From NCBI GenBank assembly GCA_002255905.1, contig NKIN01000005.1, forward strand, positions 62,001-126,000: a stretch of DNA of 64,000 bases, written 5' to 3'. A program made the translations under genes and the position numbers. Positions 4,245 through 41,649 of this stretch are shown here, piece by piece; position 1 is the first letter of the stretch; each line of letters starts with the position of its first letter. The notes under the pieces were generated by a model. That model was not told the origin of the DNA, searched no databases, and worked only from the letters and a program-made list of their open reading frames with translations. This stretch comes from Burkholderiales bacterium PBB1 (GTDB taxonomy: Bacteria; Pseudomonadota; Gammaproteobacteria; Burkholderiales; Burkholderiaceae_C).

Positions 4245-4314
4245 CTCAGCTTTCCAGGGTGCTTTGCGCGACCCGCGAAGCATGAAACGGCCGAGCATGC
4301 TTTGGTCTGCGCGA

Positions 4315-4441
4315 GCGGAGGCTACCGGGTGACCGGCTCCGCTCATGTCCCCCGGGCCGATTCACTGACCAGGCGCTTGGCGTCGAATCGATCCGGCCCT
4401 CCTCCTTTACTTCGCTGCGCCGGTCACCCGGCATCCTCCGC
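4315..4441. repeat. Hairpin repeat, locus 1, unit A (type 1)
   Basis: Arms 4315-4337 and 4419-4441 form a 23-bp inverted repeat with two mismatches. They enclose 81 nt. Just inside the left arm is TCCGCTCATGTCCCCC; just inside the right arm, on the same strand, is TCCTCCTTTACTTCGCTGC. A short inner stem GGGCCG/CGGCCC closes an apical loop of about 33 nt. It pairs with unit B (4492-4620) in inverted orientation to make a 306-nt composite between the glyS 3' end and the gmhB 5' end. The same composite, in the opposite orientation, occurs at 41331-41649. No coding function is supported. Family identity is unknown to me. Confidence 0.8.
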
Positions 4442-4491
4442 AAGCATCCAAAGCTGCAGTCAACGGTCTTCAACCGCCACGATGACGCCCA

Positions 4492-4620
4492 GAGCGATGT
4501 GGTGGGGTGCCGTGTGGAGTGAAGTAAAGGAGGAGGGCCGAATCGACGTGGGCCGAGCCGAGCGGATGTTGAACCGGCCCGGGGGACATGAACGCAACAC
4601 GGCACCGCGCCGCAGCGCTC
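4492..4620. repeat. Hairpin repeat, locus 1, unit B (type 2, inverted)
   Basis: Arms 4492-4515 and 4597-4620 match at 20 of 24 positions as an inverted repeat; the innermost ten base pairs (GGTGCCGTGT/ACACGGCACC) are perfect. Exactly 81 nt lie between them. Reading the minus strand, the core begins TGCGTTCATGTCCCCCGGGC and ends CCTCCTTTACTTCACTCC, closely matching the unit at 41331-41459, but the central part of the stem has changed on both arms in a compensating way. Units A and B are separated by 50 nt. The whole 4245-4696 gap otherwise shows no gene. Confidence 0.8.
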
Positions 4621-4696
4621 TCTCGCAAATCGAGCCATGTGGCGCACAAACGTCTGCACGGGTCCGAAAGTCGGCGCCGACAAGTCTGGTTTCATC

Positions 4697-41317: not shown

Positions 41318-41330
41318 CTGGTGATCTCGT

Positions 41331-41459
41331 GAGCGCTGCGGCGGGCCGCTGTGTTGCGTTCATGTCCTCCGGGCCGGTTCGCCAACCCTTCACTTCGGCT
41401 TTGGTGGCGCCGGCCCTCCCCCTTTACTTCACTCCACACAGCGGCCCACCGCAGCGCTC
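41331..41459. repeat. Hairpin repeat, locus 2, unit A (type 2)
   Basis: Arms 41331-41354 and 41436-41459 form a 24-bp inverted repeat with a single G-U-compatible mismatch. They enclose 81 nt that begin TGCGTTCATGTCCTCCGGGC and end CCCTTTACTTCACTCC; inner stem GGGCCGG/CCGGCCC. Same type as unit B of locus 1 (4492-4620). Seven stem bases in the middle differ from that copy, changed on both arms so pairing is kept. Confidence 0.82.
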
Positions 41460-41516
41460 CAACAACCATCGGTGCGCTCCAGGGTTTGAATGCATTCGCA
41501 TGCGACAACGGTGCCT

Positions 41517-41649
41517 GCTGCCGAGGGCGTGGGGTGACCGGCGTAGCGAAGTTAAGGAGGAAGGCCGGCTCGGTGTGACCCGAAGCGTTTGAGCGGTGAC
41601 CCGGCCTGGGGGACATGAGCGGAGCCGGTCACCCCATGCGCTCGGCAGC
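41517..41649. repeat. Hairpin repeat, locus 2, unit B (type 1, inverted), overlapping the uvrA 3' end
   Basis: Arms 41517-41542 and 41624-41649 form a 26-bp inverted repeat with two mismatches, enclosing 81 nt; inner stem AGGCCGG/CCGGCCT (the A-T pair replaces G-C of the other copies). The right arm includes the last six codons and the stop of uvrA, so the left arm is an inverted near-copy of the uvrA end. Read on the minus strand the core starts TCCGCTCATGTCCCCC and ends TTAACTTCGCTAC, matching type 1 at 4315-4441. Units A and B are 57 nt apart. No gene lies in 41270-41628. Confidence 0.82.

Follow-up and report, generated by a model that had tools for sequence, protein, structure and literature searches.

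A dispersed pair of inverted hairpins with covarying stems and a conserved internal loop in proteobacterial genomes

We describe an element of about 320 bp, composed of two inverted hairpins, that is real, widespread and without a name in Rfam or in the open-access literature searched. The fold of the element is under selection, and its active strand is the complement of the strand quoted in an earlier note on this DNA. Our main reading, to which we assign a probability of somewhat under one half (about 0.47), is that the element is dispersed and non-autonomous, resembles REP/REPIN elements, and is read in its folded single-stranded form, probably DNA, by a factor acting in trans.

Anatomy and distribution of the hairpin pair

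The window, meaning the whole stretch of 64,000 nucleotides that was analysed, belongs to a genome of 3.25 Mb in 19 contigs and contains two copies of the element with the following features.

About 4244, minus strand: start of the gmhB-like frame (relatives compared); 4697, minus strand: end of the glyS-like frame; these are the neighbours of element 1
4261–4289, plus strand: extra module, approximately GCTTCGCGCGACCCGCGACGCATGAAACG, found in a subset of copies
4295–4635, no strand assigned: element 1, an inverted hairpin pair (window sequence; extent from cross-genome matches, about query 596–936)
4313–4443, selected strand minus: hairpin A of element 1 (R1 match G000:C17:66313-66443(-), 96.4 bits)
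4343–4353, minus strand: conserved internal-loop arm of hairpin A, GGGGGACATGA
4400–4413, minus strand: other conserved internal-loop arm of hairpin A, GAAGTAAAGGAGGA
4444–4490, no strand assigned: spacer between the hairpins of element 1
4491–4621, selected strand plus: hairpin B of element 1 (R1 match G000:C17:66491-66621(+), 83.2 bits)
4521–4534, plus strand: conserved internal-loop arm of hairpin B, GAAGTAAAGGAGGA
4581–4591, plus strand: conserved internal-loop arm of hairpin B, GGGGGACATGA
41269, plus strand: end of the frame on one side of element 2
41328–41649, no strand assigned: element 2, an inverted hairpin pair (cross-genome matches, about query 629–950)
41330–41460, selected strand minus: B-type hairpin of element 2 (strand chosen by fold energy)
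41461–41517, no strand assigned: spacer of element 2
41518–41648, selected strand plus: A-type hairpin of element 2 (R1 match G000:C17:103518-103648(+), 89.5 bits)
41629–41631, minus strand: stop codon, in the last stem, of the frame on the other side of element 2

On re-reading of the sequence, the two inverted hairpins stand at both loci where the earlier note had placed them. All four hairpins are 131 nt long, and the part inside the outer stem measures 5 + 71 + 5 nt in four of four, exactly the 81 nt claimed before. A 19-letter loop pattern matched the window five times at up to three mismatches, with the four units at zero or one (chance 0.02); a looser pattern for the other loop arm matched 14 times versus 9.4 expected, which is not above chance, although all four of its exact matches coincide with the four units.

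Element 1 is placed between two minus-strand frames and element 2 between convergent frames. The names glyS and gmhB follow the earlier note and are putative, and the longest version of the gmhB-like frame in the list of open reading frames starts at 4346. The gap between these two frames is 451 nt here, compared with 10–23 nt between the same anchors in five relatives. The insert exceeds the element in size, its ends match imperfectly, and a clear target duplication was not found at this one occupied/empty site. At element 2, a long, putatively uvrA-like frame stops within the last stem (41629–41648), so that the element supplies its stop codon.

Further named loci were retrieved by an exact pattern over both loop arms that left the N positions, stems, spacer and tip free; because the pattern fixed most loop letters, the constancy of the loop in these loci is partly by construction. 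Units with 16 or more of 30 outer pairs were accepted, and the model alignment took those with 20 or more. The 284 unit finds reduced to 236 distinct ones and to 103 after removal of arm near-duplicates, and the resulting model comprises 106 positions. In the 84 units aligned, the selected strand reads 5'-stem, GAAGTAAAGGAGGA, inner stem (often tipped C(GNA)G), GGGGGACATGA, stem-3'. The core is mostly 46–51 nt in the diverse set and 69–72 nt in most units of this genome. The apical 30 nt or so, earlier said to vary freely, proved to be a short hairpin in most other lineages, the long apex being usual in this genome.

The two hairpins of an element, of about 105–131 nt each, are separated by a spacer of usually 41–65 nt (91 of 100 pairs), and their order is strongly biased. 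Neighbouring units in all fetched loci are arranged '+-' in 100 cases versus '-+' in three, with some elements lying in more than one locus; the 100 named loci, contig-edge cases excluded, hold 46 '+-' pairs, one reversed pair, one triple and 24 single units. This inverted arrangement gives each strand one correct-sense hairpin, on its 3' side. The outer flanks are complementary in some copies. The single units, together with fused or deleted forms, contradict the earlier statement that each locus always carries one unit of each subtype.

Several variant forms were also observed. In three fused copies of this genome (L008:1460-1575, L011:1490-1610 and L017:1495-1565), an internal deletion has brought together the 5' halves of both hairpins, the junction apparently lying at short stretches of inner-stem letters that the two have in common. 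Locus L014 (1480-2600) contains two hairpins of a different stem type, about 0.9 kb apart, that enclose a 184-codon open frame, a 148-residue version of which gave no Pfam match above cut-off; this arrangement is possibly a cargo-bearing form. In L091 (about 1340-1630), the second hairpin is split by an insert of about 300 nt with inverted ends CCCTAGATTCGG / CCGAATCTAGGG, which seems to be another mobile element that landed in the hairpin. The GCTTCGCGCGACCCGCGACGCATGAAACG-like module recurs, beyond its window copy, in L008, L082, L106, L114, L126, L160, L169 and L171, making nine places that are not confined to this genome, and stands 82–83 or 136–137 nt upstream of the first loop arm.

The element is dispersed far beyond the window. 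BLAST with one unit and the covariance model each found 20 places in this genome, and BLAST, model and pattern scans all returned loci other than the two described here. The comparison set comprised 40 genomes, namely this one and 39 relatives from its genus, family and order. BLAST with most of the B-type hairpin of element 2 matched 12 of the 40, this genome included, while the covariance-model search that the earlier note had proposed matched 19, this genome and 18 of the 39 relatives, with up to 46 matches per genome. The fixed pattern over both loop arms matched at least 117 stretches in named genomes. Among the matches listed, the named carriers include Rubrivivax, Rhizobacter, Ideonella, Hydrogenophaga, Rhodoferax, Variovorax, Caldimonas, Roseateles, Paucibacter, Methylibium, Sulfurisoma, Luteimonas, Pseudoxanthomonas and Lysobacter, which we assign, by name or by record title, to Burkholderiales, Rhodocyclales and Xanthomonadales. 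In an even draw across the class under strict filters, 3 of 274 genomes were carriers, counting the present one (2 of 273 others). Viral contigs gave no exact pattern match, phage records gave no match to one hairpin pair, and the plasmid set contributed only three Variovorax replicons, each larger than 1 Mb.

Within the genomes inspected, copies have stem sequences in common, and these change from one lineage to another. Cross-genome matches at both window loci reveal that the element persists at the same site across several species, so that current movement stays a postulate of our reading. In the Variovorax strains checked for an empty site the related replicon was occupied too, and a clean insertion bounded by a duplicated target was not seen.

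Selection on the fold of one strand

The four window units fold far better than expected from their composition. With 200 dinucleotide shuffles each of the selected strand, the z values are -4.5, -5.1, -9.6 and -6.1, and no shuffle was as good. Across the 84 diverse units, 94.0% of the cells in 36 stem pairs are paired, compared with 61.2% after shuffling and 36–39% for slid partners. Both-sided changes occur in 35 of the 36 stem pairs, and the covariation score reaches 0.838, versus 0.203 in shuffles and at most 0.150 for slid partners. The earlier observation that stem letters change with pairing kept therefore extends well beyond the four units on which it was made. The claim of selection on an RNA or DNA fold drawn from it is supported by this very strong covariation, with the caveat that copies also multiply as families within a genome and that copying thus contributes to the pattern.

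The strand quoted earlier turned out to be the wrong one, as its complement folds better in all four window units. Hairpin A of element 1 reaches -75.2 kcal/mol on the minus strand versus -70.1 on the plus strand, and hairpin B -70.1 on the plus strand versus -53.1 on the minus strand; the B-type hairpin of element 2 reaches -85.3 kcal/mol on the minus strand versus -79.1 on the plus strand, and the A-type hairpin -79.8 on the plus strand versus -67.8 on the minus strand. The same preference is observed in 101 of the 103 diverse units with RNA parameters and in 102 with DNA parameters. Consistent with the energies, the non-Watson–Crick stem cells on the earlier-quoted strand are A.C/C.A in 186 cases and G.T/T.G in 32 (2266 cells, 103 units), as compared with about 298 and about 210, respectively, in shuffles; per unit, the bias goes one way in 79 units and the other way in four. 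Because an A.C cell reads as G.T (G.U) when the opposite strand is considered, these wobbles fit the complement of the earlier-quoted strand, and the counting of top-strand G.T as a pair works against the asymmetry found.

The internal loop is itself part of the structure. A G.A/A.G tandem is present in 84 of 84 units, most of its letters being fixed by the search, and an A-U pair of the loop is changed to G-C in three of 84. One further position covaries, reading on the selected strand A.G in 63 units, G.A in 14, C-G in three and other letters in four. A standard-pair counter, which is blind to A.G/G.A, returns 4.8% standard pairs at this position without excess over shuffles. Three Variovorax replicons have Watson–Crick letters in place of the tandem, as expected if it lies inside a helix. 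The AGTA/GAC arrangement of the loop may resemble RNA loop-E motifs, a point against our main reading. The core flanks described earlier as constant are indeed conserved as arms, except for the one position per arm that covaries from A.G to G.A, which indicates that the 'constant' loop is structured.

Comparison of 26 orthologous locus pairs, in which genomes recur so that the pairs are not independent, ranks the parts of the element by divergence. The spacer changes fastest (371/1411 = 0.263), followed by the inner part (344/1639 = 0.210), the flanks, which are largely coding (2251/17403 = 0.129), the outer stems (335/2822 = 0.119) and the loop arms (76/1272 = 0.060). Stems are more diverged than flanks in six of the 26 pairs; in one comparison (L081 and L292), 40 of 100 stem letters differ and none of 43 loop letters. 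Between two Variovorax strains, the spacer shows 13 differences in 51 letters, the flanks 30 in 700 and the stems none in 112. As the flanks diverge about as much as the stems, the case for constraint in place rests on the comparison with the spacer, and gene conversion between copies could mimic such constraint.

Genes were called by a GC-frame heuristic, and by this call the element occupies gene gaps, but rarely divergent (promoter) ones. The 84 locus clusters divide into 43 tandem, 33 convergent and eight divergent gaps, compared with 98, 42 and 58 among the other gaps in the named loci (p 3e-5 for convergent versus divergent).

Candidate readers of the folded strand

The hairpin tips lean towards DNA as the folded form. 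GNA triloops form unusually stable DNA hairpins, whereas GNRA tips are the type favoured by RNA. Counted on stems of at least four pairs within the unit, C(GNA)G closes 48 of 62 three-base loops and C(TNC)G none, as compared with seven of 164 for either tip in control hairpins of the named loci with stems of at least seven (29/564 at six or more, 4/69 at eight or more). By comparison, GNRA is found in two of 80 loops of three or four bases, and 23 of the 103 units have no such loop.

The alternative of a two-way RNA element at gene 3' ends, in which a transcript from either side would end with one correct hairpin serving mRNA stability, mRNA processing or protein binding, perhaps with mobility as DNA besides, is in our judgement doubtful, though it accounts for a good deal. 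It fits the symmetric design, the enrichment in convergent and depletion in divergent gaps, the G.U-type wobbles and the ordered purine pairs. Between co-directional genes, the gene-sense hairpin scores higher in 39 elements and lower in 19 (p 0.012, raw), and the named set has it better kept in 15 versus seven elements and in 10 versus four single units (paired test p 0.077). Such preservation would favour RNA, but after merging of related loci the effect is 28 versus 16 (p 0.096) and not significant. The GNA rather than GNRA tips, the lack of an Rfam match and the near absence of a T-run terminator also speak against it, with TTTT found within 18 nt after the hairpin in just two of 103 units and missing in 101. 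The same count weighs on the suggestion that these are just palindromes or bidirectional terminators which chance copying has preserved, with no selection on the fold; their intergenic, GC-rich, gene-end location would suit that suggestion, but the covariation and the strand asymmetry contradict it and leave it the least probable of the explanations considered.

Two enzyme families that handle folded DNA were considered as readers. That the element is an oversized REP/BIME family, produced by a RAYT (Y1) protein or still a target of its binding, with the protein domesticated or decayed in many hosts, is an unlikely but reasonable proposal, since inverted pairs, genome-specific amplification and compensatory stems are also described for REPs in the passages cited (PMC2817692, PMC3733652). 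The PF01797 (Y1) profile gave no match in this genome, yet a protein query detected a diverged RAYT-like gene in 33 of the 40 genomes, this one included, with 18 of 19 model-match carriers and 15 of 21 non-carriers among them. Of the 19 named carriers, 15 match this query, or 16 with a PF01797 hit in G047. Carriers G046, G052 and G057 match neither the query nor PF01797, and PF01797 is negative in seven of 14 carriers (a set chosen to include weak or negative ones), and four of these seven match the query. The search for an associated transposase proposed earlier yielded a RAYT-like protein in most carriers, but its gene hardly ever neighbours the hairpins: of 67 RAYT-gene loci searched, drawn from two sets that have some genes in common, 66 lack a hairpin and one has it, and no RAYT gene flanked by two inverted units was found. 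The element also lacks a GTAG/CGTC tag. In the genus, 14 of 15 members searched have one RAYT-like match each (this genome's gene is L254, G000:C13:140668-141363; the others are L248–L253, L255 and L264–L269). In all 14 proteins the putative HUH motif is changed, to DEVRLL or, in other species, to a QQ.LLL-like form, and the putative catalytic tyrosine region is lost. Judged from these residues, the protein is probably a domesticated, inactive transposase. The species with the DEVRLL variant are all rich in elements, and carriers with an intact, differently degenerate or undetected Y1 also exist. The element may be bound, or may originally have been produced, by a RAYT, but no active, linked RAYT was seen across the genomes and RAYT-gene loci searched, and an active Y1 transposase does not seem to be needed today. 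Handling by the integron integrase, which would treat the hairpins like attC as a folded bottom strand with shape over sequence, we hold very improbable. The integrase is above the curated cut-off in 10 of 17 carriers (G010, G019, G035, G042, G043, G044, G046, G047, G052 and G070) and in none of 14 control genomes, which are not an element-free set; this genome has a fragment below cut-off (G000:C16:230822-231079). However, the attC R boxes (RYYYAAC, GTTRRRY) are found in the paired arms of none of the 103 units, as in none of the shuffled arms, and 13 integrase regions gave one weak match to the element model (E 0.0014) and 10 shorter loci none. Integrons are in any case common in some carrier clades, such as Xanthomonas with 93% according to the cited text (PMC12444791).

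Repeats of attC-like form were observed near the integrases of G046 and G070. Recurrent neighbour genes were rejected as mobilisers because their clusters, among the matches listed, were frame-shadow ORFs or orthologous housekeeping loci, and no recurrent transposase was recognised among these neighbours.

Relation to known systems and implications

Rfam gave no match at the gathering score in the window and four further loci, in line with the earlier remark that no named family has this shape; under relaxed settings the best hit, to a miRNA model whose gathering score is 149, reached 30.7 bits. Among the matches listed, open-access literature on hairpin repeats, a part of the whole literature, contained nothing matching, and searches with the motif strings returned what look like unrelated primer or oligonucleotide texts.

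The nearest relatives by architecture are REP, BIME and REPIN elements of the GTAG and CGTC classes, with which, so far as the cited passages describe them, the element shares dispersed intergenic inverted hairpin pairs, genome-specific amplification, compensatory stems and structured spacers. It differs from them in unit size (106 model positions, and 131 nt in the window, versus 20–40 bp), in stem length (more than 20 bp versus 5–13) and in having its conserved letters in the internal loop instead of a terminal GTAG or CGTC tag, which is absent at both ends of the 84-unit consensus. Unlike in the GTAG class, no RAYT gene flanked by a hairpin pair was found; for the CGTC class, the cited part of PMC3733652 reports no transposase association. 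Tag, size and RAYT linkage thus set the element apart from REPs despite its REP-pair-like architecture and behaviour. The ends of IS200/IS605 are described, in the cited text, as subterminal hairpins read as single strands (PMC6006769), but the hairpins of the present element are mutually inverted and three carriers have no detected Y1 relative.

Other known systems share individual features with the element. For a MITE of a DNA transposon, which is marked by terminal inverted repeats, a target duplication and a cognate transposase, the observations are complementary outer flanks in some copies, no clear duplication at the one occupied/empty site, and no recurrent transposase among the neighbours listed. 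attC sites are single-strand hairpins in which structure prevails over sequence and one strand is active, and the element would resemble them in these respects; it differs in lacking R boxes, in occurring as pairs and not at cassette ends, and in its absence from integrase genes beyond one weak match. Repeats of the RU-1 type, which we take to be ERIC, keep their sequence, whereas the new element keeps its loop and fold. RU-1 itself is given in the cited passage as an enterobacterial intergenic mobile repeat of 127 bp (PMC2759123), similar by description to our element.

On our main reading, the folded form would be single-stranded DNA or an extruded cruciform, in which a trans-acting enzyme or protein would read the internal loop and the fold and not the stem letters. 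This factor would copy or move the element by way of the hairpin on the 3' side of either strand, and compensatory changes of the stems would let new masters arise in each lineage. A bolder version, possible in our view yet rather less than probable, holds that the element represents a separate class of mobile DNA in three proteobacterial orders (by name), whose folded single-stranded DNA is read by a factor other than an active Y1 transposase through the ordered purine-rich internal loop and the GNA-tipped stem, while the stems drift in matched pairs.

The element is a widespread dispersed repeat with very strong evidence for selection on its fold, a clear active strand and no established enzyme. 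It makes directly testable which factors read folded strands in bacterial chromosomes: since the loop and tip are kept and the stems are free, a single bait could be tried across several genera, and the genus has a candidate binder in its unusual, apparently dead RAYT-like protein. In addition, genome annotation would gain a marker that has no match in Rfam.
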